A stretch of 39,827 nt of DNA from Bacillota bacterium (lineage in GTDB: Bacteria; Bacillota; Limnochordia; Darwinibacteriales; Darwinibacteriaceae): assembly GCA_012837925.1 (NCBI GenBank), contig DUQE01000048.1:1-39827 (forward strand), written 5' to 3'. Below are positions 8,192 through 33,543 of this stretch, piece after piece. The first letter of the stretch is position 1, and each line of letters opens with the position of its first letter. The position numbers and the translations under genes were made by a program. The notes beneath the pieces are model-generated. The model was not told where the DNA came from and did no database searches. It worked only from the letters and a program-made list of their open reading frames with translations.

Positions 8192-9379
8192 GTGCCAGTG
8201 AATACGCGGGTAAACTTGAATATCTACATTGTAACCATGATGACCGTGGTCTTGGGTGTCATATTCTACAGTGGATTTCGTGAAGCCAGTTGGCTTGTGA
8301 TGCTCATCTTTGCACTTCTGCAGATCTATTTAGCCGACGTAAAGGTACGTATTAGTGAGCGCACCGACGTTTCGCTGGGTGCTGCCGCTGTACTGCCCAT
8401 GGTTATCATGTGCGGCGTAACCCAATCGATGCTCATTTCTGTTCTTCTGGGCATCTATGATGGTGTGAAGGGTAAGAAAGAATGGCAACGTTCCATGTTC
8501 AATGCCGCGCAACTAGCCTTGTCAGCTTTGATGATGCGCTTGAGCTTTGTGTATGTTCGCGATGCATTGGCGGGCACTGGTTTTGAACTTGCAGTCGCGG
8601 CAATCGTGGCAACGGCGGTGTACATTGTCTTTAACATTGGGTTGGTGTGTCGCATGGCCGCTATCTCCAGGGGTGTTTCCTGGCTTGCTCACTTTAGACT
8701 AGTGTTTCCTCTCCTGATGTACAGTAGCTTTAGTAGCGGCTTTATTGGCATTATCTTTGCATTCTTTATCTTGAGTTATGAGTTCTGGGGACTGGTGGCC
8801 TTTTCCGTCCTCCTGATCAGCCTGTCGGGGCTACTGGAGGCTGCTGCAGCGGTCAGTGTGGAGCGGGAGCAGAGGAAGCAGCTCGAAGAAGAGCTGGTCA
8901 TTGATGAGATGACGGGTGCCTACAACTTCCGCTACTTGAATAACTGGCTCGGTGAGCCTTCGGGCGAAGCGATGAGTCTGCTGTTCATGGATATTGATGA
9001 CTTTGCTCTCTTCAATGATACCTACGGCCATGCTGAGGGCGACAAGGTTCTAGCGCTCTTGGTTGAGACGATCCGCAAGAGTGTGAGGGAAGACGATCAC
9101 GTCATTCGCTACGGCGGTGATGAGTTTGTGGTGCTATTGCGAGGGGTTGACGCAGAAGGAGCAAGGCGACTTGCAGGTCGCATTGTAAAGAACTTGACTC
9201 TGGTGACGACCCCTACCTGGAAGGAACCTATTACGGTCTCCCTCGGCATCGCGGTCAAACCTGAGCACACGAAGGATAAACGTCAGTTGCTCTTGTATGC
9301 CGACCAGGCGATGTACAAGGCTAAAGAGGCGGGTAAGAATAATGCACAAGTCTGGAGCGAAGTTCAGGACATCGCGTAG
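8192..9379 (+). CDS. Membrane-anchored diguanylate cyclase (GGDEF), paralogue 2
   Basis: Same architecture as 6930-8123; RYGGDEFVV, I-site REDD. Confidence 0.92.
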   Translation: MPVNTRVNLNIYIVTMMTVVLGVIFYSGFREASWLVMLIFALLQIYLADVKVRISERTDVSLGAAAVLPMVIMCGVTQSMLISVLLGIYDGVKGKKEWQRSMFNAAQLALSALMMRLSFVYVRDALAGTGFELAVAAIVATAVYIVFNIGLVCRMAAISRGVSWLAHFRLVFPLLMYSSFSSGFIGIIFAFFILSYEFWGLVAFSVLLISLSGLLEAAAAVSVEREQRKQLEEELVIDEMTGAYNFRYLNNWLGEPSGEAMSLLFMDIDDFALFNDTYGHAEGDKVLALLVETIRKSVREDDHVIRYGGDEFVVLLRGVDAEGARRLAGRIVKNLTLVTTPTWKEPITVSLGIAVKPEHTKDKRQLLLYADQAMYKAKEAGKNNAQVWSEVQDIA

Positions 9380-9430
9380 CATTCTAACAGGTATCATTCG
9401 CATCTTTTTTCACGAGCATCCCTCAACGAA

Positions 9431-9458
9431 GCAGGATATTGGGAAAAAGCAAAGAAAT
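9431..9458 (+). promoter_or_regulatory. Sigma-H-like promoter upstream of diguanylate cyclase 3
   Basis: GCAGGATAT-N11-AAAGAAA; shares the 10-mer CAGGATATTG with the site at 6869; about 38 nt before the start. Confidence 0.55.
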
Positions 9459-9496
9459 TACCAATATCGGCGAGGTAGCGGTAAGGGGGTGTTGGC

Positions 9497-10693
9497 TTGC
9501 CGGATGCGAATGTAGAACGACGGATGGACCGTGCTATGGATTTGCTAGCAGCCATTGCGGTCATCTTGGGTGTTATTTTTTACAGTGGTGTTCGTGAAGG
9601 GACTTGGCCAACCATTCTTGTCCTCGGCGCTCTGCAGGTATACTTGCAGGGTGTTTCGGTGCGTATAAGTGAAAGAACAGATATCTCGCTGGGTACAGCC
9701 GTAGTTATGCCCATGGCACACATCGCCGGCGTTACACCATCGATGTTGATCGGTGTGCTTCAGGGAGTCTATGATGGTGTGCGAAATAGAAAACTCTGGC
9801 GACGAACCATGTTTAATGCAGCACAGTTTGCCATTTCCAGGCTCGTGGCAACATTGGTGCTGGAGTATTTGAAACAAGTCCTGGGAACGACAGGGGCTGG
9901 ATTGGTCGTTGCACTGATGGTGGCGACGGTTGTCTATATCGTCTGTAATATCGGGTTTGTTTGCTATGTGGTGGCGAACTGGAGAGGCATTTCCTGGTTT
10001 ACGCAGATGCGCCTGGTTTTGCAGATGGGATCCTTTAGTAGTTTCAGCAGCGGGTTTATTGGAATCATCTTTACGTACTTTGCCATCAGTTATGGTTTTT
10101 GGGGCATCGTGTTATTCGCCATCTTGTTGGTTAACCTCTCAGGGCTCCTAAAGGCAGCGGCCGAAGTAAGTGCGGAGCGAGCGCTCAGACAAGAACTAGA
10201 GGAAGAGCTGGTCATTGATGAGATGACGGGTGCCTATAACTTCCGTTTTCTCAACAATTGGCTGAGTGAGCCTTCAGACGAAGCAATGAGTCTTCTTTTC
10301 ATTGATGTTGATGATTTCGCCGTCTTCAACAATACCTATGGTCATGGGGAGGGCGATAAGGTCCTCAAAGAGTTGGTCGAGACCATTACAAAGAGTGTTC
10401 GGGCCGATGATCAAGTCATCCGCTATGGGGGCGATGAGTTCGTCGTATTCTTGAAGGGAATGGATGCCCAGGGAGCGCAGCGCGTCGCCGAGCGCATTAG
10501 GGAGAACCTATCCACATGTAAGAATCCCACGTGGAAGGAATCGATTACTGTTTCTTTAGGAATTGCGGCCAAACCCTATCATACGTCGGATAAGAGGCAG
10601 CTCCTGCTTTTTGCGGATCAAGCAATGTACCAGGCTAAGGACGCTGGTAAGGACACGATTCAAATGTGGAGCGCTATCAAGGACCCTGCTTAG
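9497..10693 (+). CDS. Membrane-anchored diguanylate cyclase (GGDEF), paralogue 3
   Basis: Same architecture; RYGGDEFVV, I-site RADD; TTG start after AGGGGGTG. Confidence 0.92.
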   Translation: MPDANVERRMDRAMDLLAAIAVILGVIFYSGVREGTWPTILVLGALQVYLQGVSVRISERTDISLGTAVVMPMAHIAGVTPSMLIGVLQGVYDGVRNRKLWRRTMFNAAQFAISRLVATLVLEYLKQVLGTTGAGLVVALMVATVVYIVCNIGFVCYVVANWRGISWFTQMRLVLQMGSFSSFSSGFIGIIFTYFAISYGFWGIVLFAILLVNLSGLLKAAAEVSAERALRQELEEELVIDEMTGAYNFRFLNNWLSEPSDEAMSLLFIDVDDFAVFNNTYGHGEGDKVLKELVETITKSVRADDQVIRYGGDEFVVFLKGMDAQGAQRVAERIRENLSTCKNPTWKESITVSLGIAAKPYHTSDKRQLLLFADQAMYQAKDAGKDTIQMWSAIKDPA

Positions 10694-10698
10694 GGTCT
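10683..10698 (+). terminator. Short hairpin overlapping the stop codon of diguanylate cyclase 3
   Basis: GACCCT-GCTT-AGGGTC then TTTACCTTTT; stop TAG within the hairpin. Confidence 0.5.
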
Positions 10699-10724
10699 TT
10701 ACCTTTTGCACTGGAGGTAGAGAT

Positions 10725-11648
10725 GTGAACTCGGTATTTGACTATAGCGGGTTTCTCGAGGAGACCCTGCAGGAAAGTAGGAAACACGCAGAACGTGGCC
10801 AAGTAGCTTCGTATATCCCTGAGTTGAAAAAGGCAGACCCAAGAATGGCTGGTGTGGCCTTAATGACCCCGCAGGGCCTTTTTGAGGCAGGTGACTCCCG
10901 CGTTGACTTCACGCTGCAGAGCATATCCAAGGTAATTAGTCTCTTGGTGGCCTTGGAACAGCGCGGAGTAGAGGCAGTGTTTTCCAAAGTGGGTTCTGAG
11001 CCCACCGGAGACTCGTTTAACAGCATTGTTAAGCTGGAAACCTCGGAGCAAAAGCCACTCAATCCGATGATCAATGCCGGAGCTATTGCCGTCTGTTCAC
11101 TGATTCCTGGTTCTTCTGTCGAAGATCGTTTTGCACGTATTGCCGACCTTTTGGAGAAGATTCTGGGGAGGCCGGTAGAGGTAGACGAGTCGGTGTACAA
11201 ATCCGAGAAGGAGACAGGACATCGCAATCGTGCCCTGGCTTATTTTCTCAAGGACATTAACGGCCTTGAGGGTGATGTAGAAGAGGTACTGGACCTTTAT
11301 TTCCGGCAATGTTCAATTTTGGTTAATTGTGCCGATCTAGCCCGCATAGGCATGTTCTTGGCTACGAAAGGTATAGGTGACGATGGGACTCCAATCGTGT
11401 CAGCCAAAGCCGTGCGCCTAGCCTCGGCCTTTATGGTGACATGTGGCATGTATAATGGGTCGGGAGAGTTTGCCATTCAGGTCGGGATTCCGGCCAAGAG
11501 TGGCGTTTCTGGCGGGATTTTGGGAGTCGTTCCCGGGCAGTATGGTGTGGCCACGTTTGGGCCGGCTCTAGATCGTAAAGGAAACAGCGTTGTTGGCATC
11601 AGCATGCTAAGGCGCTTATCGGAGGTTCTAGACTTCAGCATCTTTTAG
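10725..11648 (+). CDS. glsA: Glutaminase
   Basis: LQSISKVISL (Ser-x-x-Lys), NPMINAGAI, SGVSGGILGVVPG. GTG 10725 with GGAGGTAG RBS; the N-terminal extension in the ORF track is out-of-frame translation of the preceding gene. Confidence 0.93.
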   Translation: MNSVFDYSGFLEETLQESRKHAERGQVASYIPELKKADPRMAGVALMTPQGLFEAGDSRVDFTLQSISKVISLLVALEQRGVEAVFSKVGSEPTGDSFNSIVKLETSEQKPLNPMINAGAIAVCSLIPGSSVEDRFARIADLLEKILGRPVEVDESVYKSEKETGHRNRALAYFLKDINGLEGDVEEVLDLYFRQCSILVNCADLARIGMFLATKGIGDDGTPIVSAKAVRLASAFMVTCGMYNGSGEFAIQVGIPAKSGVSGGILGVVPGQYGVATFGPALDRKGNSVVGISMLRRLSEVLDFSIF

Positions 11649-11659
11649 GGGAGAGTGCT

Positions 11660-12631
11660 ATGGGTACAGAACGCGTAACTTTTTCCACGAGGAGATTCTT
11701 GGTGGGTAAGGCTGGTCCTTTTCCGCGCCTCGTTTTTCGTGAGGAAGTCATGCTCGCTTTGGACCAGTTCTCCCATTTGCATTCCGAGGGGGAGCATGGC
11801 GGATTCTTGATCGGAAGAAAACACGAGCTGAAGACCGCCGAGCAATACGAGCTCACTGTCGAGCGTTTTGTCCCGATTCCCCAGAGAAGCGACGCGTCGC
11901 GCTTAGTCATCCACCAGGACCACTACCGGACCGTCGAGTTAGCGTTAAAAAATGGTGAAGAAGTGTTGGGCTGGGCACATACGCATCCTGGTTTTGGTGT
12001 GTTCCTCTCCAATTTTGACAAACAGCAGCATCAAAGGTTCTTCCCGGAACCTTGGCAGATAGCCTATATTATGGACAACCAGGCGCAAGAACGTGCAGTT
12101 TATCGATTGGTTGACGATGAGTGGAGGCGCCTGGACGGTTACTATGTTTTGCGTGACATGGCGGAAAACGAAGTCGGCATTACGTCGGGGGCTCGCACTG
12201 GGGGTCCTTGGTTACGCGTTCTGGCGACCGTCTTAACGATTCTAGTGTTGGTAGCTGGTGTAGCGATTGGTTGGCCCCTTGTGAGGGATTTGCTGACCGA
12301 ACCCGAACCTGCGAGACAACTCGCAGTAGAACCAGAACCAGTTGTACAGCAAGCGCAGACAGAGGAGACTTCTACTCCAAGTGTCGTGGACGCAGCTCCA
12401 TCGGAGGTGGAGACAGAACCCAGAGTCGTCACCATCACTCCGCCGCCAACGATACCACGTTACGTAGATTACGTAGTGCAACGTGGCGATACGTTGTGGT
12501 CCATTGCGGGAAAACTGTGGGGAGACCCGAGTTTGTTCCGTCTGATCGCTGAGGAGAATGACATCGCCAATCCGAGTTCTATTCGTGTGGGACGAGTTTT
12601 GCGTGTTCCTGCCGATCCTCACCAAAGATAA
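11660..12631 (+). CDS. JAB/MPN (JAMM) metalloprotease-like domain + TM helix + C-terminal LysM domain
   Basis: GEHGGFLIG and HTHPGFGVFLSNFD (HxHP-x7-S-x2-D), hydrophobic LRVLATVLTILVLVAGVAIGWPLV, Glu/Pro-rich linker, LysM YVVQRGDTLWSIAGKLWGDPSLFRLIAEENDI...IRVGRVLRVP. Confidence 0.88.
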   Translation: MGTERVTFSTRRFLVGKAGPFPRLVFREEVMLALDQFSHLHSEGEHGGFLIGRKHELKTAEQYELTVERFVPIPQRSDASRLVIHQDHYRTVELALKNGEEVLGWAHTHPGFGVFLSNFDKQQHQRFFPEPWQIAYIMDNQAQERAVYRLVDDEWRRLDGYYVLRDMAENEVGITSGARTGGPWLRVLATVLTILVLVAGVAIGWPLVRDLLTEPEPARQLAVEPEPVVQQAQTEETSTPSVVDAAPSEVETEPRVVTITPPPTIPRYVDYVVQRGDTLWSIAGKLWGDPSLFRLIAEENDIANPSSIRVGRVLRVPADPHQR

Positions 12632-12680
12632 TAGAATTGTCAGACATAAGGTAGGAAAATTCACAAAAAAATAAAAATAA

Positions 12681-12708
12681 GCAGGAATTCCTAACTTCAA
12701 CTCGAATT
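12681..12708 (+). promoter_or_regulatory. Sigma-H-like promoter upstream of orphan ORF
   Basis: GCAGGAATT-N11-CTCGAAT; about 31 nt before ATG 12740. Confidence 0.6.
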
Positions 12709-12739
12709 GCAGTAACATCCGGGGAAGGGTTGAGGAGGT

Positions 12740-13192
12740 ATGCTTATTAATCGTTTAGATCCATCATTTGTACAGTCATCATTAGAACTTTTAGGTAAGG
12801 CTTGTGAGGGACATCCTCACTTGCGGGTGAAAATCGCTGTTGATTGTGTGCAGAAAGGGTATGCTACCCATGAACAAGTGGCTGACTTTTTGGGCCTGAG
12901 TGTGGATCGCTGGAGGTCGTTTTATGAGCACTTCCAGGAGGGCGACGTTGCCAGGATACCAAATAAACTCCGAAATGTCGTCCCTGCTATTGATTTGCGC
13001 CTTCTAACAGGTTTCACCGATGATCAGTTGAACATATTAGAAAGGGCACTGGAAGTGCCGATCTTGATGGCGGAAGGAGTCGATGAACACCATCCTCTGC
13101 TACAAGAACTGAGGTTTTTGATGGTTTTTGGGGTCTTGTTAAAAGGCAAACATGATCGGTTCAAAAGCTATTCCCTGCGGATTGCCTGGTAG
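12740..13192 (+). CDS. Hypothetical protein with HTH-like segment
   Basis: ATG with GAGGAGG RBS; segment YATHEQVADFLGLSVDRWRSFYEHF resembles a helix-turn-helix; family not recognised. Confidence 0.75.
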   Translation: MLINRLDPSFVQSSLELLGKACEGHPHLRVKIAVDCVQKGYATHEQVADFLGLSVDRWRSFYEHFQEGDVARIPNKLRNVVPAIDLRLLTGFTDDQLNILERALEVPILMAEGVDEHHPLLQELRFLMVFGVLLKGKHDRFKSYSLRIAW

Positions 13193-13200
13193 TAAAGAAA

Positions 13201-13235
13201 AGGAGTCGATTTGCCTTGCGGCAATCGACTCCTCT
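13201..13235 (-). terminator. thrS intrinsic terminator
   Basis: Minus strand AGGAGTCGATTGCC-GCAA-GGCAAATCGACTCCT followed by TTTCTTT. Confidence 0.85.
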
Positions 13236-13238
13236 TAC

Positions 13239-14972
13239 TTAGTCTTGTCTCTTCTCAGCAATGGTTTGCTTGATCTGACGCAAGAATTCGTCTACGCTGA
13301 GCGAACCGAGGTCGCCTTGTCTACGATGTCGAACAGAGACCTCTCCGGCTTCTTGTTCCTTTTGCCCTACAACAAGCATGTAGGGGATCTGTTGTAATTG
13401 TGCTTCGCGAATCTTCTTGCCAAGTTTCTCTCCTCTGCGGTCCACTTCAACTCGGATACCTGCTTCAAAGAGCTTTGCCTCCACTTGGTCCGCGTAGTTG
13501 AGATAGTCATCACCCACTGGGATCACCTGAACTTGAACAGGTGCAAGCCAAGTGGGGAAAGCACCGGCTGTGTGTTCCACCAAGATGGCCATGAAGCGTT
13601 CTAGCGCCCCGTAGAGCACGCGGTGGATCATGACAGGCCGTTTGCGTTCGTTATCTTCATCAATGTAGGTGAGATCAAAACGCTCGGGCATGGCAAAGTC
13701 TAGCTGAATGGTTGCACATTGCCATGTTCTACCGATGCTATCTTCGAGATGGAAGTCGATCTTCGGTCCGTAGAAGGCACCATCGCCTTCGTTGACCACA
13801 TAGTCCAGCTTTTTCGCTTGGAGGGACTGTCGGAGTGCCTCTGTAGCTACATCCCACATAGCATCATCGCCAATGGCGTTTTCTGGTTTGGTCGAGAGCT
13901 CAACATGGTATTTGAAGCCAAAGGTCTTGTAGACCTCATCCACAAAATTGATAACTCCTTCAATTTCCTCCTGGATTTGGGAGGGTAACATGAAAATGTG
14001 CGCATCGTCTTGGGTAAAGGCGCGTACACGCATCAAACCGTGCAGTGTTCCAGATAGTTCATGACGGTGCACCAGACCCATCTCAGCCATGCGAATGGGC
14101 AGATCCCGATAGGAGTGGAGTTTACGTTTATAGACGAGCATAGAACCTGGGCAGTTCATTGGTTTAATGGCAAAGGTTTGCTCATCAATTGTGGAGAAAT
14201 ACATGTTGTCTTTGTAGTTCTCCCAATGTCCTGATCGGTGCCAGAGATCTTCATGAAGCATGATGGGGGTTTTGATCTCCACATAACCATGCTTGCGATG
14301 CTCTTCACGCCAATAGTCCTCCAAGACGTTCCTCAGTACCATGCCCTTGGGATGGAAGAAGGGGAACCCAGGTCCTTCGTCTTGAATACTGAAGAGATCG
14401 AGTTGTCGACCCAAGACGCGGTGGTCGCGTTTGGCGGCTTCCTCTAACATACGCAGATGGGCTCTGAGGTCCTTGCCGTTTAGAAAAGCCAGTCCGTAAA
14501 TTCTCTGAAGCATCGGCCTCTTGGAGTCGCCTCTCCAGTAAGCTCCTGCCACGTTCTGCAATTTGAAGTGCTTAACCTTTGAGGTAGACTCCAAGTGGGG
14601 CCCCCTGCACAAATCCATGAACTCCCCTTGACGGTAGATACTGACGTCATTATCGAGCCCCTCTAGAAGTTCCAGCTTGTAATCTTGGTTTTGCTCAGCA
14701 AAGATCTTCACTGCTTCACTATTTGACAGTTCCTCGCGAACAATGGGTAGGTCCTCGTCGATGATCTTATGCATCTCTGCTTCAATTGTCTCTAAGTCTT
14801 CTGGAGTAAAACGATGTTCGAGATCAAAGTCATAGTAAAATCCGTTCTTAATTACTGGTCCAATCGCGATCTTCGTTTCGGGCCATAACCTCAAAACAGC
14901 TTGTGCCATGATATGGGCTGCCGTATGACGCATGACCTCCTCTTGGTTAATCATTCCGATGTTTTCATCCAC
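13239..14972 (-). CDS. thrS: Threonyl-tRNA synthetase (TGS-less form)
   Basis: HTAAHIMAQAV editing motif, class II core (MNCPGSMLVYK, RMAEMGLVHRHE), anticodon-binding domain. Start refined to GTG 14972 (AAAGGAG RBS); upstream ORF-track residues are T-box leader. Confidence 0.95.
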   Translation of the reverse strand: MDENIGMINQEEVMRHTAAHIMAQAVLRLWPETKIAIGPVIKNGFYYDFDLEHRFTPEDLETIEAEMHKIIDEDLPIVREELSNSEAVKIFAEQNQDYKLELLEGLDNDVSIYRQGEFMDLCRGPHLESTSKVKHFKLQNVAGAYWRGDSKRPMLQRIYGLAFLNGKDLRAHLRMLEEAAKRDHRVLGRQLDLFSIQDEGPGFPFFHPKGMVLRNVLEDYWREEHRKHGYVEIKTPIMLHEDLWHRSGHWENYKDNMYFSTIDEQTFAIKPMNCPGSMLVYKRKLHSYRDLPIRMAEMGLVHRHELSGTLHGLMRVRAFTQDDAHIFMLPSQIQEEIEGVINFVDEVYKTFGFKYHVELSTKPENAIGDDAMWDVATEALRQSLQAKKLDYVVNEGDGAFYGPKIDFHLEDSIGRTWQCATIQLDFAMPERFDLTYIDEDNERKRPVMIHRVLYGALERFMAILVEHTAGAFPTWLAPVQVQVIPVGDDYLNYADQVEAKLFEAGIRVEVDRRGEKLGKKIREAQLQQIPYMLVVGQKEQEAGEVSVRHRRQGDLGSLSVDEFLRQIKQTIAEKRQD

Positions 14973-14998: not shown

Positions 14999-15290
14999 TA
15001 AAAAAACCTGCATCCACATGGGACGAGGTTGTCGCGGTTCCACCCAAATTGACTGTCTTGGACACTGTGATCCAAGAAAGCCCACTCTTAGCAGCATATA
15101 ACGGTGCTACCGGCCTGGCTTACTCTGAGAAACACGATGTTCTCGTTCAGCTGGCAACTCCTAGGTGGTTTTCACCAAGACGTCCCTGGGGGAGCTTTCA
15201 GCTCATGGGTATTGTATAACAGTCTCCATGGCTCCCATTCTCTGTCAGGTTGATAATGGCTACTCTTCCTACTCATCGTTTTTGTCTATT
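14999..15290 (-). ncRNA. T-box riboswitch leader of thrS
   Basis: Minus strand: GATGAGTAGGAAGAGTA (AGUA-box region), T-box GGGTGGAACCGCG (15033-15045), terminator AACCTCGTCC...GGATGCAGGTT-TTTTT (15005-15030). Specifier codon not assigned. Confidence 0.92.
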
Positions 15291-27352: not shown

Positions 27353-28066
27353 ATGGGCATTGTTGAGCTACATAATGTGAGGAAGGTCTACACTCTAGGC
27401 AAAGCCGAAGTTCATGCAGTGCGGGGTGTGACTTTTTCTATAGAAAAAGGTGACTTTGCTTCGATTGTCGGACCATCGGGTTCAGGAAAATCTACCATCC
27501 TCAATTTAATCGGGTGTATTGACCAACCGACGGACGGGGTCGTGAGCATCAATGGAACTGTGACGCAAGGTCTAAACGATAAGGCCCTCACTAGACTGCG
27601 TCACGAGACTCTAGGTTTCATTTTTCAATCCTTTAACCTGATCCCAGTGCTCAATGTCTATGAGAACATTGAGTTTCCACTGCTCTTGGGAAAGGACAGA
27701 CCGGGAAAGAAGGAAATGCGAGAGTGGATTGAGTTCCTGGTTGAGGCGGTAGGACTAGCCGATCACATGCACCACAAGTCCAATGAACTATCCGGCGGGC
27801 AACGTCAGAGAGTGGCCATTGCCAGAGCTTTAGCTACAAAGCCGCAGATTGTGCTAGCCGATGAACCAACAGCCAACCTTGATTCCAAGACAGGGCAGAG
27901 TATCATTGAACTCATGAAGAAGATGAATGCGGAACTCAATACAACATTCATCTTTTCGACGCACGACACTACCATCATGGACATTGCTGATCATGTGATT
28001 CAACTTCTCGATGGCCTCATCGTGGAGGACACCAAGAAGAGTGCCAAGGTGGGGAGTCTGTCATGA
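27353..28066 (+). CDS. ABC transporter ATPase, LolD/MacB type
   Basis: Walker A GPSGSGKST, signature LSGGQRQRVAIARAL, Walker B IVLADEPTANLDS. Confidence 0.95.
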   Translation: MGIVELHNVRKVYTLGKAEVHAVRGVTFSIEKGDFASIVGPSGSGKSTILNLIGCIDQPTDGVVSINGTVTQGLNDKALTRLRHETLGFIFQSFNLIPVLNVYENIEFPLLLGKDRPGKKEMREWIEFLVEAVGLADHMHHKSNELSGGQRQRVAIARALATKPQIVLADEPTANLDSKTGQSIIELMKKMNAELNTTFIFSTHDTTIMDIADHVIQLLDGLIVEDTKKSAKVGSLS

Positions 28067-29553
28067 AGATTATCCTGACAATTGCCTGGCGCAATATTCG
28101 GCAACACAAGGTAAAGACGCTGATCATTGGCCTGATTATGGTGATTGGTATCATGGTGCTGGTGGTCGGCAACTCCTTTATGGATTCAGCTGCAGCGGGC
28201 ATCGAAAAATCGTACATCCAAAACTACACAGGTCATCTCATGATTACAGGTGAGAGCAAAGGCTACCTAACCTTGTTTGGCTTTCAAGACACTACAGCCA
28301 TGGAGCGGGCGGTACCGAGAATTCCTGAGTATGCAGAGATTGTAGAGTTTGCGAATTCCCTTCCCTATGTGGAAGCGATCAATCCGCAAGTATCAGCCAC
28401 GGCCATGATTTCGCGAGGCGACAACATGATTGCTGCGACTCAACTCTTCGGAATCCTACCGGAACAGTACCAGGTCATGTTTCCTGACAATGTGGAGCTC
28501 TTAGAAGGAGACTTTTGGGCCCCAGGTGAGCAGGGAGTTCTCTTGAACAAGACTGTAGTAGACCTCATGGAAAAGCAGGTTGGGTTCACGTTTAGACCTG
28601 GTGACAAGGTCTTGTTTACGTCTGTGAGCACCTTAACAGGCATGAGAATTCGTGAAGTCGAGATCACGGGGATATTCCAGTTTAGGCAATCGAACATACA
28701 GCTAGATATGGTTTCCCTCATGGACATTTCCAACGTACGAGCCCTCGCAGGTATGGTGGTGGGTCATGCTGCACCCGCTGATCTGAGTGCTGACGAACAG
28801 TCGCTTCTAGGTGCCATTGATGAAGATAGCTTTTTTGACTCCTTTGATTCCCTGGATTCGCTTTTCGCACCCGTTGAGGTTGAACAGGACATGTCTGATG
28901 ATGACTATTGGTACTCGCTCTTGGGTGAAACTGAGTCGAGAGACTTGTCTAACCTGGAAGATACAGGAGCCTGGCAATACCTCTTGGTGCGCTTGACGGA
29001 CGAAGGATATACAAGGCAAGCCCAGATAGATTTCGCCAAGTTCTTTGCGGACAATAATACTGCAGCACAGACGCGCGATTGGATGCAGGCCGCCGGATCT
29101 ATGGCCCAGTTATCAAGCGGGATCAAGAGCATTTTCAACAGTGTAGTTTTTCTCATCGCTATTGTGGCCGTGATCATCATCATGAATACTTTGGTCATTT
29201 CCGTGACTGAACGCATGGGTGAAATCGGGACGATGCGTGCTATTGGTGCTCAAAAGGGTTTTGTGAGGCGCATGGTGATGTGGGAAACCCTCATTCTCTC
29301 TGGTCTTGCTGGAACGATCGGTATTCTCCTTGGAGCGCTTGTGCTCTTTATCCTAAATCGGGTAGGGCTTGAGGCCAGCAACATGTTCTTCGAGATCATC
29401 TATGGTGGCCCCGTACTGCGCCCTGAACTGTCTCTATCGTCGGTTATTATGTCTTTTGTGGTGATTGTGGTTGTTGGGGTTGTCTCGAGCATCTATCCCA
29501 CAAGCATTGTGATGAAAACATCGCCACTCAAGGCTATGGAAAGTTCGAGGTGA
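28063..29553 (+). CDS. ABC transporter permease, FtsX/LolCE type, with acidic ectodomain insertion
   Basis: N-terminal TM, large ectodomain, three C-terminal TMs, ERMGEIGTMRAIGAQ; ATGA overlap with the ATPase gene. Confidence 0.92.
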   Translation: MKIILTIAWRNIRQHKVKTLIIGLIMVIGIMVLVVGNSFMDSAAAGIEKSYIQNYTGHLMITGESKGYLTLFGFQDTTAMERAVPRIPEYAEIVEFANSLPYVEAINPQVSATAMISRGDNMIAATQLFGILPEQYQVMFPDNVELLEGDFWAPGEQGVLLNKTVVDLMEKQVGFTFRPGDKVLFTSVSTLTGMRIREVEITGIFQFRQSNIQLDMVSLMDISNVRALAGMVVGHAAPADLSADEQSLLGAIDEDSFFDSFDSLDSLFAPVEVEQDMSDDDYWYSLLGETESRDLSNLEDTGAWQYLLVRLTDEGYTRQAQIDFAKFFADNNTAAQTRDWMQAAGSMAQLSSGIKSIFNSVVFLIAIVAVIIIMNTLVISVTERMGEIGTMRAIGAQKGFVRRMVMWETLILSGLAGTIGILLGALVLFILNRVGLEASNMFFEIIYGGPVLRPELSLSSVIMSFVVIVVVGVVSSIYPTSIVMKTSPLKAMESSR

Positions 29554-29557
29554 TCCG

Positions 29558-30886
29558 ATGTTCTTGACAATGAAAGTCGCGTTTCGCAACATTTCTCGAC
29601 AGAAAAAACGCAGTTTCCTTTTGGCTGGAGCCATAGCCTTTGGTATGCTCGTCATTACTCTGATGAATGCCCTCACCGGTGGAGTCGTGGGAACCATCCG
29701 GGATAACTTTTCCCACGCTTTAGGTGGTCACGTGTTCATTACGGGACAAGAGTGGACCGATGCGGGCCAGATGATCATGAAGATTCGTCCCGATGAGAAC
29801 CTTGATCGACTCCTCGAAGAGAATGCGACACAGATCGAAGCGTTTACGAGAAGAAGCCAAGCCATGCCCACCATGATTTTTGGTTCAAAGCAAACCATGC
29901 AGATGCTTTATGGAGTAGACTTTACGGAGGAAGACAAACTCCTTGACAGTCTGGTGGTCACCCAAGGGAGGCTTGCCGACGTCTTGGTGGAGGAGAATGC
30001 GGTCATCCTGCCCCAACCGGTTGGAGAACGTTTAGGGGTCCAAGTGGGCGAGACCATCTTGATCCGCCTCGAAACTCTGACAGGACAGCAGAACGTTGGG
30101 GAGCTAAAAGTGGTTGCATTTATTGAAGACCAGGAAGAACTAGGCTTATCAGCAGCCTTTACAAGCCGCTCCTACCTGAATACCTTGTTGGGTATGGATC
30201 AACATGAATACCAGATTCTCAACATGTTTGTCACGGACTTGAGTTTAGTGGACAGTTTTGCCCGCATCTTTCGAGAGGGATTAAGAACGCCTGACGAAGG
30301 TGAGGAAGAGGCGGAGCCACAGGTGGCCGTGATGGTAGCTGGAGTGCCTCTGGATCCTCTGGCCGAAGCGGAGGAGATTACCCCTTGGGAAGGCACACGC
30401 TACAGGGTGATGCACATTAACCAGATTATGGAGGCCGTGGAACTTGTAGTAGGTGTACTGAACCGAGTTGGCCTTGTCATCTTTTTAATCCTGCTCGTGG
30501 TGACTATGGTGGGTATAACGAACACCTTCAGGATGATGATGATTGAGCGGACGAAGGAAATTGGCACGATGCGTGCCTTTGGTATGCATCAGAAACAGGT
30601 GAAGAACATCTTCCTTTGGGAAGCAACATTCCTTGGGTTATTGGGATGCGTGGGAGGTCTGGTTCTGGCTGGCGTCATTTCCCTTATCGTCGGGAATATC
30701 ACCTTTGATGCGGATCCTTCACTCCAGTTCTTCCTAAACCAGGGGCAAGTCGTCTTTGATGTGTCCCTTGCCAGCGTTATCGGTAACACGGCCATTGTAG
30801 TTTTGATCAGCTTGCTTGCCGCATACTGGCCTGCACGGGCTGCAGCTCGAATGTCGCCCATGAAGGCACTCAGTTCTCACACATAG
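29558..30886 (+). CDS. ABC transporter permease, FtsX/LolCE type
   Basis: Same topology, ERTKEIGTMRAFGMHQKQV. Confidence 0.92.
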   Translation: MFLTMKVAFRNISRQKKRSFLLAGAIAFGMLVITLMNALTGGVVGTIRDNFSHALGGHVFITGQEWTDAGQMIMKIRPDENLDRLLEENATQIEAFTRRSQAMPTMIFGSKQTMQMLYGVDFTEEDKLLDSLVVTQGRLADVLVEENAVILPQPVGERLGVQVGETILIRLETLTGQQNVGELKVVAFIEDQEELGLSAAFTSRSYLNTLLGMDQHEYQILNMFVTDLSLVDSFARIFREGLRTPDEGEEEAEPQVAVMVAGVPLDPLAEAEEITPWEGTRYRVMHINQIMEAVELVVGVLNRVGLVIFLILLVVTMVGITNTFRMMMIERTKEIGTMRAFGMHQKQVKNIFLWEATFLGLLGCVGGLVLAGVISLIVGNITFDADPSLQFFLNQGQVVFDVSLASVIGNTAIVVLISLLAAYWPARAAARMSPMKALSSHT

Positions 30887-30897
30887 GGGGTCTTTCG

Positions 30898-31662
30898 ATG
30901 AAGAACATGATGTCTGTTGTTGTAGCTTTAGTGCTGTGCGTTCTTGTGACGGGACTGCCAGCCCAGGCCCAGGACTTTAGTCATATTGAGGCAATATTGG
31001 AGCGTCTTGATGCGCAGTCGCGTTTTGATAACACCGATTTTTCATCGGTCTTGACCATGGTCGTGGAAGATGTGGAAAAGGGTATTGAGAAGATGGTGGT
31101 ACGCCAGTTTAGGCGTGATGATGGCGAGCGTTTCCTGCTCTTGATCCAGGAACCTGTCACGGAGAAGGGACAAGGGTACCTGCTAGAGGGGGACAACTTG
31201 TGGTTCTACGATCCTTCCAGCCGCCAATTTGCACATACCTCGCTCAAGGAGAACTTCCAGGACTCGGATGCTCGTAATGCGGACTTCGGATCCAACAGTT
31301 ACTCTTCGTCCTACGAAGTGGAGGGTTATCTGGAAGGTACCCTAGGTAACTTTGAGGTGTACATTATTGACCTGAAGGCTGTGGATGATACTGTTCCCTT
31401 TCCTTTCGTTAAACTGTGGGTGACCAAAGACTCGGACTTGGTGTTAAAGACCGAGGAGTACAGCTTAACGTATCGGCTGATGCGTACTGGCTTGTTCCCT
31501 AAGTACACAAAGGTTGGAGATGTGGTCATGCCTGTGCAGATGGTCTTCATTGACGAGCTTGTACCCGGGAACAAGACCCAGATTTCCGTCAGCGAGATCT
31601 CCGTCAGCGACATTCCTGATCACGTCTTTACCAAGGCCTATATTGAACGAGTGAACCGTTAG
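30898..31662 (+). CDS. LolA-like outer membrane lipoprotein-sorting protein
   Basis: Signal peptide ...TGLPAQAQ; LLLIQEPVTEKGQGYLLEGDNLWFYDPSSRQF resembles COG2834-type LolA-like proteins. Confidence 0.82.
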   Translation: MKNMMSVVVALVLCVLVTGLPAQAQDFSHIEAILERLDAQSRFDNTDFSSVLTMVVEDVEKGIEKMVVRQFRRDDGERFLLLIQEPVTEKGQGYLLEGDNLWFYDPSSRQFAHTSLKENFQDSDARNADFGSNSYSSSYEVEGYLEGTLGNFEVYIIDLKAVDDTVPFPFVKLWVTKDSDLVLKTEEYSLTYRLMRTGLFPKYTKVGDVVMPVQMVFIDELVPGNKTQISVSEISVSDIPDHVFTKAYIERVNR

Positions 31663-31672
31663 GAGGTAGATC

Positions 31673-33028
31673 ATGCGAAAAACGACGATTTTCCTGAGTG
31701 TACTCGTACTTCTCTTCGCTTTGAATAGTACCGTGTGGGCCATGGATTTTGACGATCTCTTTGGTGATGACTTGTTTGTAGAACTTGAAGAAGAAGAGAA
31801 AACGATAGCTCCTGAGGAAGCCCTCCTGGTACAGGATGGTTGGGATGTAGGGGGTAACTATCGTCTAGCTGTTAATGCCAGCAGAAGGTTTATGGGGAGT
31901 TCTAAGGTAGGAGACATGTTTGGCACCTCACTAGGCGGACAAGTCTACTTGGATGCCAGGCCAGATCCAAACTTTCGGGTTTTTGGAAAAGTTGGTCTGA
32001 ACTACGCAGTAAGCAAGACGATAGGTGAAGATGGCACCAACAAGGATCCATTGAAACTTCGCCTGGAAGAGCTTTTCTCCGACTTTAACTACGACAACAA
32101 AGTGTTCTTTAGAGGCGGAAAGCAGAATGTGAAATGGGGCGTGGGTTATTTTTATAGCCCGGCCGATGTCATCAGTATTGGACGCATCGATCCCATGGAT
32201 CCCGATCTCGACCTCGAAGGTCCGGTAGCGCTGAAGGTACATTACCCTAAGGGTAGCACAAACTATTATCTCTACACCATTCTTGACGGCGTAGACGCCC
32301 TTGACAAAGTCGCCCTGGCTCCGAAGATGGAGTTTGTCATTGGCGGAACCGAAGTTGGACTTGGCGCGTTTTATCAAAAGGATAAGGCACCAAGGGCGAT
32401 GGCCACCGTCTCTTCGTCTTTAGGCAATTTGGCCGTTTTCGGTGAAGCGGTGGTCAGCAAGGGGTCAGACAAGGGGTTTGTAACTGGAACCACGATGGAC
32501 TATCCTGTATACAAACGTGATCAGCTTTTCTTTCACGCCACAGCAGGGGCCAGATATAGCCATAAGGATCCCGATGGGCTCTTTAACCTAACGCTAGCCG
32601 GTCAGTATTACTTCAACGGCGAGGGTTATCAGAACCAGGAGGATATACAGTCCTTCAAGGAATACTACGCGACCTTACTCATGATGGCACAGACAGACGA
32701 TCCAATGAAGAAGATCGCACAGGAGGCCCTGGCCAAGCTGAACGTCAATGCCTCTGACCTGACTTCCACTGGGCGTCATTACTTAGCCGCTATGGTAGGG
32801 TGGAGCAATCTGCTGAATACGAAACTGTCGTTGTCGACCTTCGTCAACGCCAATCTTTCTGACAAGTCAGGTATCGTGCAGACAACACTCAGTCTGCCTT
32901 CCTTGAGCAAGATTTCTCCAAGTGTAGGTGTCGCTTTCAACTATGGTGATCCAACTACGGAATTTGGGTCTCTTGAACGTAGCACAACGGTGTTTGCGGC
33001 CATAACCTTCGGAAGCGGCTCGTTCTAA
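31673..33028 (+). CDS. Predicted outer-membrane beta-barrel protein
   Basis: Signal peptide (...STVWA), many alternating amphipathic beta-strands (YRLAVNASRRF, FRVFGKVGLNYAV, VFFRGGKQNVKWGVGYFYSP), C-terminal Phe (ITFGSGSF). Confidence 0.82.
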   Translation: MRKTTIFLSVLVLLFALNSTVWAMDFDDLFGDDLFVELEEEEKTIAPEEALLVQDGWDVGGNYRLAVNASRRFMGSSKVGDMFGTSLGGQVYLDARPDPNFRVFGKVGLNYAVSKTIGEDGTNKDPLKLRLEELFSDFNYDNKVFFRGGKQNVKWGVGYFYSPADVISIGRIDPMDPDLDLEGPVALKVHYPKGSTNYYLYTILDGVDALDKVALAPKMEFVIGGTEVGLGAFYQKDKAPRAMATVSSSLGNLAVFGEAVVSKGSDKGFVTGTTMDYPVYKRDQLFFHATAGARYSHKDPDGLFNLTLAGQYYFNGEGYQNQEDIQSFKEYYATLLMMAQTDDPMKKIAQEALAKLNVNASDLTSTGRHYLAAMVGWSNLLNTKLSLSTFVNANLSDKSGIVQTTLSLPSLSKISPSVGVAFNYGDPTTEFGSLERSTTVFAAITFGSGSF

Positions 33029-33040
33029 AGGTAGAAAAAT

Positions 33041-33075
33041 GCCCGATTCAGGCGAACGGTTTTGCCTGACCGGGC
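33041..33075. terminator. Bidirectional terminator between OMP gene and cheX
   Basis: GCCCGATTCAGGC...GCCTGACCGGGC, T-run on the plus side (GTTTTTTT) and on the minus side (ATTTTTC). Confidence 0.85.
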
Positions 33076-33081
33076 GTTTTT

Positions 33082-33543
33082 TTATTTGCCATGTAAGGAG
33101 ATACTTACTTCTAGTGTGCCTATATCGGTTATAAGTGGAAGGACGATAGCCTTCTCCGTTGACATGGAGAGGGTGCCCTCACTACCGATAAATGCTTGTG
33201 GCGGCGAAATGTCACAGACCAGAGCGTTCTTCGAGAGATAGGTCAAGGCATTGCCACTGATGATGTTTGCCACTTCGCTCAACGCAGAAGTAACAAATGC
33301 ATCAAGCTTGGTCATACGCATGCCCGACATAATGTGAACCATTTCAAGAGCCATAGCTTTAGGGAAACTATAAAGCAGTGATCCCCGTAAATCGCCTGTA
33401 ACACCTATTCCTACATTGGCCTCGCTTACAGGAACAAGTTCCTCCACGGCCTTCAGGGTCCCTCTTTTTGGTTCGAGACTGAGCATGACGCGAAATACAT
33501 CTAAGGTTGCTTGATAAAAGGGATTTATGTACTCTACTCTCAT
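33082..33543 (-). CDS. CheX-like chemotaxis phosphatase
   Basis: CheX-type E-x2-N motif (SEVANIISGNA) within a CheX/CheC-like fold pattern. Confidence 0.82.
   Translation of the reverse strand: MRVEYINPFYQATLDVFRVMLSLEPKRGTLKAVEELVPVSEANVGIGVTGDLRGSLLYSFPKAMALEMVHIMSGMRMTKLDAFVTSALSEVANIISGNALTYLSKNALVCDISPPQAFIGSEGTLSMSTEKAIVLPLITDIGTLEVSISLHGK

Follow-up and report, generated by a model that had tools for sequence, protein, structure and literature searches.

Operon Layout and Gene Products

The window, the whole 39,827-nucleotide stretch of Bacillota DNA analysed here, carries five consecutive open reading frames on the + strand. Their domains and folds match the five-protein cassette (ATPase, two permeases, LolA-like protein, and barrel) recognised in an earlier note on this DNA and show that it is real. 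The genes, the features within them, and the terminator are listed below.

27353..28066, + strand: LolD/MacB-type ABC ATPase, 237 aa (Pfam and NCBIfam)
28063..29553, + strand: permease 1, type VII (MacB/LolE/LolF-like), 496 aa (Pfam, structure-profile alignment, AF2)
28753..28974, + strand: insertion of permease 1, acidic and disordered, within its periplasmic domain, roughly aa 231-304 (mostly at a block pLDDT of about 41-56)
28819..28842, + strand: LF motif copy 1, DEDSFFDS, aa 253-260 in the permease 1 insertion (F258 invariant, 53/53)
28855..28866, + strand: second motif copy, DSLF, aa 265-268 of the same insertion (sequence)
29558..30886, + strand: permease 2, type VII (MacB/YtrF/LolF-like), 442 aa, without LF motif (Pfam, profile)
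30898..31662, + strand: periplasmic carrier of LolA fold (PF17131), a secreted protein of 254 aa with signal peptide (Pfam, 3buu)
31673..33028, + strand: outer-membrane beta-barrel of a DUF1302-like superfamily, 451 aa, C-terminal Phe (AF2, Foldseek, hhalign)
31742..31834, + strand: disordered tail at the N-terminus of the mature barrel protein, roughly aa 24-54 (pLDDT <50 at residues 17-45)
31745..31765, + strand: DFDDLFG motif in the barrel tail, aa 25-31 (F30 in 55/57)
33034..33082, + strand: intrinsic terminator at the operon end (-28.1 kcal/mol, z -6.4)

The ATPase and permease 1 genes overlap by 4 bases, and the following gaps measure 4 (permease 1 to permease 2), 11 (permease 2 to carrier), and 10 bases (carrier to barrel). 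The tight packing and single terminator described earlier are thus borne out, whereas the single promoter is weak, as the promoter scan gave 9 promoter-like sites versus 6.5 expected. No cargo gene adjoins the operon, no LolB-like gene lies within it, and neither a membrane-fusion protein (MacA) nor a TolC-type duct is found among its proteins.

The ATPase matches ABC_tran (PF00005, 2.3e-32), and its top NCBIfam match is LolD_lipo_ex, with 229.7 bits, which is below the TIGR02211 cut-off of 307.75. Both permeases contain FtsX and MacB_PCD domains (1e-20 and 2.2e-8 in permease 1, 1.3e-21 and 2.4e-10 in permease 2) and score 82.1 and 72.2 bits, respectively, against the LolC/LolE equivalog TIGR02212, below its cut-off of 362.45. 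The permease 1 family profile covers the transmembrane and periplasmic domains of the LolF/LolE structures. In the AF2 model of this protein (pLDDT 80), a short-turn hairpin (strands 182-189 and 193-207) is found where the Hook region of LolF aligns; Hook sequences of LolC/LolF are poorly conserved (PMC10865981).

The LolA fold of the carrier and the barrel fold of the last protein, both put forward for checking in the earlier note, hold. The carrier matches LolA_like (PF17131, 1.2e-38) and the solved LolA-superfamily protein 3buu (4.9e-24), reaches only 12.2 bits against the LolA family proper (TIGR00547, cut-off 112), and has no lipobox visible in its sequence. The AlphaFold model of the barrel (mean pLDDT 86.6, pTM 0.82) has an all-strand body, and its Foldseek matches are porins, e.g., MOMP, Occ, AlgE, and OmpM1 (best E 5.8e-14). 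The window barrel matched no Pfam family and gave no Omp85 match either; 24 of the 57 members of its family show weak matches to DUF1302 (PF06980; best 3.8e-5), and 69 of 72 relatives also end in Phe.

Host Genome and Conservation of the Cassette

The earlier note had placed the operon in a diderm Firmicute and proposed a search for BamA and a comparison of gene order. The genome is that of a diderm, Limnochordia-type Firmicute: BamA, LptF/G, and LpxB are present, and Omp85 was found in all 61 genomes of the class that were searched. Complete cassettes with the same gene order and operon-like spacing number 58, come from two phyla, Bacillota and Spirochaetota (Rectinema subterraneum is one named spirochaete with a cassette), and have varying flanks. 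Conservation on this scale lies far outside what chance would give, so the system is real. It rules out that the barrel is an isolated orphan or sits there by accident, and the identical order in dozens of independent assemblies rules out an assembly or annotation artefact. In the concatenated tree, a branch with support 75 sets the Bacillota cassettes apart, beside Spirochaetota rows; the tree was rooted at the midpoint only and so gives no direction for a horizontal origin.

Carrier–Barrel Pairs with Other Pumps

A second locus of the same genome encodes, in order, a TetR regulator, an MMPL pump (5.9e-46) fused to PF17131, and a DUF1302-like barrel. Across the class, the order pump, PF17131 protein, and barrel recurs with MMPL pumps or with a second ABC type. 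Profile comparison shows homology among the barrels of these three systems (hhalign 99.5%, 98.0%, and 99.7%, the first value being that of window-type versus MMPL-linked barrels) and among their carriers (99.7%), and some MMPL-linked barrels match PF06980 with values down to 5.1e-13. The earlier suggestion that the barrel is either recipient or cargo can be narrowed to recipient, in keeping with the LolA fold, the barrel, and the diderm genome; the barrel as cargo is not supported because its family follows the carrier gene even with a pump of another class.

Proteobacterial relatives have the order ATPase, permease, PF17131 protein, and barrel-like protein (hhalign 97.5%). They adjoin ketoacyl synthases, a malonyltransferase, a P450, and a phosphopantetheinyl transferase, as in polyketide-type clusters, although these are neighbours of distant relatives, with about 25% carrier identity. 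We found no literature on this carrier inside biosynthetic clusters.

An Acidic LF Motif on Permease 1 and the Barrel Tail

A new acidic motif of the DxxLFG type is common to the permease 1 insertion and the barrel tail, with its Phe kept in 53/53 and 55/57 sequences, respectively. At a threshold of at least 9 bits, a motif profile built from permease 1 only recognised 94% of barrels versus 4% of 585 other ORFs, and 0–9% of the other cassette proteins. The profile recognised 95% of real barrel tails versus 9% of composition-shuffled tails, which rules out a by-product of acidic composition. In the window genome, the barrel tail is the only [DE][DE]LFG match directly after a signal peptide. The insertion and the tail are absent together from the sister systems: permeases of type-2 cassettes (411-429 aa) have no insertion, and MMPL-linked and type-2 barrels have no disordered tail. 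The most divergent cassette (L056) retains both. A general tail of outer-membrane proteins is not supported, given that MMPL-linked and type-2 barrels are without the motif and that it follows no other signal peptide in the genome.

Permease and barrel motifs match each other by lineage to a modest degree (17 of 2000 permutations within clades were as high), and the control with paralogues from one genome succeeded in only one of three genomes; these data lend weak support to co-variation of the two motifs. The shared motif is a candidate site at which the carrier may dock, although its ligand could instead be a fourth partner encoded elsewhere.

Proposed Function and Alternative Explanations

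On balance, the operon probably specifies a transport line with three stations, along which hydrophobic cargo travels from the inner to the outer membrane. The cargo would be a lipid or an amphiphilic small molecule, with a lipoprotein less probable, and the system would be an ABC counterpart of AmeABCD. The ATPase would drive a heterodimeric exporter of permeases 1 and 2, which would lift the cargo from the outer leaflet of the inner membrane; the LolA-fold carrier would shield it across the periplasm, and the DUF1302-like barrel would take it and insert it in the outer membrane or pass it across. The LF motifs of permease 1 and the barrel tail may dock one carrier at both ends, a task that falls to the LolC Hook in E. 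coli. The analysis establishes the genes, their folds, the conserved operon, the homology to carrier–barrel pairs driven by RND pumps, and the shared motif; which way the cargo moves, what it is, and what the motif binds are inferred. The dedicated envelope-trafficking route of the earlier note is supported by the diderm genome, the LolA fold, and the barrel.

The Lol lipoprotein route of that note is not: a name other than “Lol lipoprotein pathway” would suit the system better because all equivalog cut-offs were missed, neither Lnt nor canonical LolA was found in the genome, and the carrier–barrel pair also occurs with RND/MMPL pumps. A genuine but divergent Lol pathway, with the exporter extracting diacylated lipoproteins, the LolA-like carrier moving them, and the barrel or its tail replacing LolB, seems unlikely, even though LolD tops the NCBIfam matches for the ATPase, LolF/LolE give the best alignment to the permease 1 profile, over the periplasmic domain too, and the carrier has a LolA fold. 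The absence of LolB from most diderms (PMC11784454) and the Lol name given to a similar Halanaerobiales cluster (Antunes et al. 2016, PMC5007114) would also suit it. Besides the missed cut-offs and the RND pumps paired with homologous carriers and barrels, it is opposed by Lnt, which had no match at E <= 0.001 in the window genome (assembly 94% complete) and exceeded the cut-off in 0/61 genomes, and by canonical LolA (PF03548), over the cut-off in 1/61. Moreover, 12 of 15 tested spirochaetes hold canonical LolA beside the cassette, and some diderm relatives lack the cassette.

The opposite direction, in which a hydrophobic nutrient would enter through the barrel and be handed inward by the carrier, with the ABC complex as importer or mechanotransmitter, is quite improbable. 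Some DUF1302 systems may serve uptake, a point against the export reading, as P. putida requires its DUF1302/DUF1329 genes to grow on Tween 20 (PMC10866462). Foldseek neighbours of the barrel include Occ-family uptake porins. The neighbours of the relatives in Enterobacter and Paraburkholderia are, however, biosynthetic and not catabolic. Permeases of the MacB/LolCDE type are known exporters or mechanotransmitters and are not known to act as importers. We consider still more remote a tripartite efflux of toxic amphiphiles of the MacAB-TolC type, with the LolA-like protein as adaptor, the barrel as duct, and two-component or TetR regulators sensing the toxin. The MacB_PCD domains of both permeases would fit it, as would the response regulator and histidine kinase encoded downstream of the cassette in spirochaetes and of related cassettes in Aliiroseovarius and Vibrio, and the TetR upstream of the MMPL version; yet the cassette lacks the fusion protein and duct of such pumps, and its carrier has a lipid-binding fold.

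Relation to Known Systems

AmeABCD of Castellaniella defragrans and PP_0765/0766/2018/2019 of Pseudomonas putida likewise combine a LolA-superfamily periplasmic protein, a DUF1302-type barrel, and an inner-membrane pump; these RND-linked systems of DUF1302 and DUF1329/LolA-superfamily proteins are tied to hydrophobic compounds, namely monoterpenes (AmeABCD, PMC6394551) and Tween 20 (PP_0765/0766, PMC10866462). Their pump is an HAE3 RND/MMPL protein and their carrier a DUF1329 protein with an extra periplasmic protein, AmeC, whereas the window system has an ABC pump and a PF17131 carrier; no LF-motif insertion or tail is described for AmeABCD-type systems. E. coli LolCDE-LolA-LolB shares the type VII ABC exporter, the two different permeases, and a LolA-fold carrier, but there the carrier is PF03548 and LolB stands in place of the barrel; the window genes run D-perm-perm-A-barrel and score under all equivalog cut-offs, and Lnt was not found in the genome.

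Describing the cassette as under-described was fair, although two similar clusters have been reported. The Halanaerobiales cluster, also from a diderm Firmicute, has LolA beside two LolC/E permeases and the LolD ATPase; the portion of the report available ties it to Lnt and mentions no barrel, while the window operon ends in one and Lnt was not found (PMC5007114). The analogous Borrelia cluster BBJ23-29 comprises an ABC transporter with one homodimeric permease, a LolA-like protein, TPR proteins, and an Omp85-family barrel, and the available text of its report mentions no shared motif (PMC13078400); the window barrel has no Omp85 match and porins as nearest folds. The Borrelia cluster was rejected as a close relative: when plasmids were searched for permease 2 and the carrier, no Borrelia record was among the matches listed.

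Significance

Possibly, though we propose it tentatively, one short linear motif, on a disordered loop of the inner-membrane exporter and on the disordered tail of the outer-membrane receptor, steers a LolA-fold carrier between the membranes; such a two-ended docking relay, unlike the Hook/LolB logic, would belong to an ABC-driven lipid/metabolite export system common to diderm Firmicutes and spirochaetes. It offers a single-residue hypothesis (permease F258, barrel F30). Terrabacteria and spirochaetes lack LolB, and a system of five defined genes that brings its own receptor bears on how their lipids and lipoproteins get to the outer membrane. The data suggest that many PF17131 proteins labelled “outer membrane lipoprotein-sorting protein” are lipid/metabolite carriers that keep the same barrel partner while ABC and RND pumps can replace each other.

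The Five-Gene Cassette and Its Diderm Host

The tightly packed five-gene operon proposed in the earlier note is borne out by open reading frames whose neighbours are spaced or overlap by 4–11 bases:

27353–28066 (+), ABC ATPase
28063–29553 (+), permease 1, FtsX and MacB_PCD domains
29558–30886 (+), permease 2, FtsX and MacB_PCD domains
30898–31662 (+), carrier, PF17131 (LolA_like)
31673–33028 (+), barrel protein, no Pfam family

The terminator thought to close the operon is real (z −6.4), and the signal for the single promoter claimed for it was no better than chance. The expected LolA fold is supported by membership of the carrier in PF17131 and by its match to 3buu (4.9e-24). The barrel was also confirmed: its AlphaFold2 model, built with 57 sequences, has a mean pLDDT of 86.6 and a pTM of 0.82, with residues 17–45 disordered, and Foldseek returned the porins MOMP, Occ, AlgE and OmpM1 (best E 5.8e-14). 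With a TM score of about 0.47, the modelled barrel has a fold of the same kind as these porins and is no close relative.

The window genome (2.24 Mb, 94% complete) carries one cluster encoding BamA with POTRA domains, LptF/G, an LptB-like ATPase, a FabZ-like protein and LpxB, and Omp85 was present in all 61 genomes of the class that were searched. The guess that the host is a diderm Firmicute, of the Limnochordia type, is therefore correct. Immediately 5′ of bamA in this cluster lies a SpoIVB-type S55 peptidase gene (L036, 15984–17792). The T-box leader at 15016–15285 (−) of the window, scoring 99.4 bits, is confirmed as a Firmicute-type regulatory element.

Distribution and Gene Order

The barrel was matched, whole or in part, in 23 of 23 genomes searched of the window's family, and its distribution across the remaining families of the class is patchy. 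When 85,462 species genomes were scanned, 80 barrel loci were retained, hosted by Limnochordia-type Bacillota and, unexpectedly, by many Spirochaetota, a named strain, Rectinema subterraneum, among them. In both phyla, nearly all contigs that permit a view show the genes running ATPase, permease 1, permease 2, carrier, barrel. Median gaps in 58 complete cassettes are −1, 9, 17.5 and 16 bases, with one gap value distorted by an extra ATPase paralogue at locus L089. In a tree of the four non-barrel proteins, the Bacillota fall to one side of a branch with support 75, next to the Spirochaetota, some of which carry two cassettes. The four aligned proteins of the R. subterraneum cassette show no difference from those of a cassette on a contig attributed to Smithella sp. 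SCADC (loci L134 and L135 for the two); the latter contig is probably contamination in the Smithella assembly. A contig from a Trueperaceae MAG (L144, Deinococcota) bears a cassette that groups with the spirochaetes, reflecting either transfer or a binning error.

The cassette is followed in many spirochaetes by genes for a response regulator of the OmpR type and for a histidine kinase, which suggests control responsive to the envelope or the cargo. Such two-component systems follow the barrel at L087, L088, L100, L134 and L140, as well as the related cassettes of Aliiroseovarius and Vibrio (L168, L185).

Relation to the Lol Pathway and the Possible Cargo

The proposed Lol-type trafficking route held only in part. 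The exporter end is predicted to work like LolCDE, because the permease 1 profile aligns with LolF/LolE across the transmembrane and periplasmic domains. However, membership of the Lol pathway itself fails on the features tested. The ATPase reaches 229.7 of the 307.75 bits required for LolD; both permeases (82 and 72) miss the LolCE cut-off of 362, and the carrier (12) misses that of 112 for LolA. Lnt had no match in the window genome and was above the cut-off in none of the 61 genomes searched. Canonical LolA (PF03548) exceeded its cut-off in 1 of the 61, and is encoded elsewhere in the genome in 12 of 15 cassette-bearing spirochaetes.

Relatives on plasmids of Proteobacteria consist of an ATPase, one permease, a PF17131 protein and a barrel-like protein, whose homology to the window barrel shows in profile comparison (97.5%). 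The relative in Enterobacter bugandensis lies in a cluster with ketoacyl synthases and a malonyltransferase, on a mobilizable plasmid of hospital source:

L170, plasmid pEC105227L, 154464–167147, ketoacyl synthase, ABC ATPase, permease, PF17131, barrel-like protein

The Paraburkholderia relative is clustered with a P450 and a phosphopantetheinyl transferase, and that of Aliiroseovarius lies near an anthrone oxygenase and a ketoacyl synthase. Among RND versions, AmeABCD has been tied to monoterpenes (PMC6394551) and another to Tween 20 (PMC10866462). These biosynthetic neighbours and RND ties point to hydrophobic small molecules or lipids, rather than lipoproteins, as the likely cargo of the wider system kind.

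Sister Carrier–Barrel Systems

A second PF17131 protein of the window genome is fused to an MMPL pump:

L035 (G000:C48), 8414–13427, TetR, MMPL/LolA-like fusion, DUF1302-like barrel

An assembly slip was ruled out as the source of this fusion, since open frames of ~1000 aa recur around this copy in at least ten family members. Divergent from this locus, a patatin-like phospholipase (L035, 6627–8291) has a long C-terminal extension, apparently strand-rich, and is possibly a patatin–barrel fusion.

Across the class, where flanks suffice, PF17131 genes are nearly always preceded by a pump, either MMPL or a shorter ABC exporter of a second type (type-2), and followed by a secreted barrel-like protein. 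The exceptions are locus L064, without permeases between ATPase and carrier, and the rearranged loci L157 and L163; at L153 the carrier was not picked up by the script. In profile comparisons, window-type barrels match MMPL-linked barrels at 99.5% and type-2 ABC-linked barrels at 98.0%, and the carriers match across systems at 99.7%. DUF1302 (PF06980) was matched by 24 of 57 window-type barrels and 12 of 18 others.

A Motif Shared by Permease 1 and the Barrel

The periplasmic domain of window-type permease 1 contains an acidic insertion of roughly 75–100 residues (about 231–304, modelled with low confidence), with a motif like DEDxLFG whose phenylalanine, F258, is invariant (53/53). The mature barrel starts with a disordered acidic tail bearing the same motif (F30 in 55/57). 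With a profile built from permease 1 alone, 94% of barrels reach 9 bits or more, versus 4% of 585 other ORFs, 0% of ATPases, 3% of carriers and 9% of permease 2; the reciprocal profile picks up 91% of permease 1. This score is reached by 95% of real tails versus 9% of composition-shuffled ones. Both insertion and tail are absent from the type-2 and MMPL systems; both are kept in the most divergent window-type cassette (L056), with 25–31% identity in permeases, carrier and barrel. In the window genome the pattern [DE][DE]LFG occurs at chance frequency, and after a signal peptide only in the cassette barrel.

Permease 1 and barrel alike carry GDMVDT at L137 and DDELFG..SLV at L134. Past the clade level such matching is modest (17/2000 permutations), and among three two-cassette genomes own-pair preference appeared in Rectinema only (64/51 vs 37/26).

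One motif on two proteins of different membranes should have a common binding partner. The obvious candidate would be the carrier, as the sole soluble periplasmic protein of the operon. It has basic (R72, R73, R193, R196, K117, K246) and aromatic (F71, F111) residues conserved specifically in the window type, a specificity that may simply mirror ancestry.

Concluding Remarks

Sequence and model together show an exporter, carrier and barrel architecture. Judging from the protein families, the type VII exporter would extract cargo at the expense of ATP, the LolA fold would shield it, and the barrel would receive it; the LF motif may serve docking at both ends of the route. The component parts and the general plan are already known. 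A literature search found no paper on the five-gene ABC–barrel unit or the shared motif, though one may exist. What is new is an ABC version that has a DUF1302-like barrel of its own and is conserved across two phyla as a unit of five genes, together with the motif common to permease 1 and the barrel.
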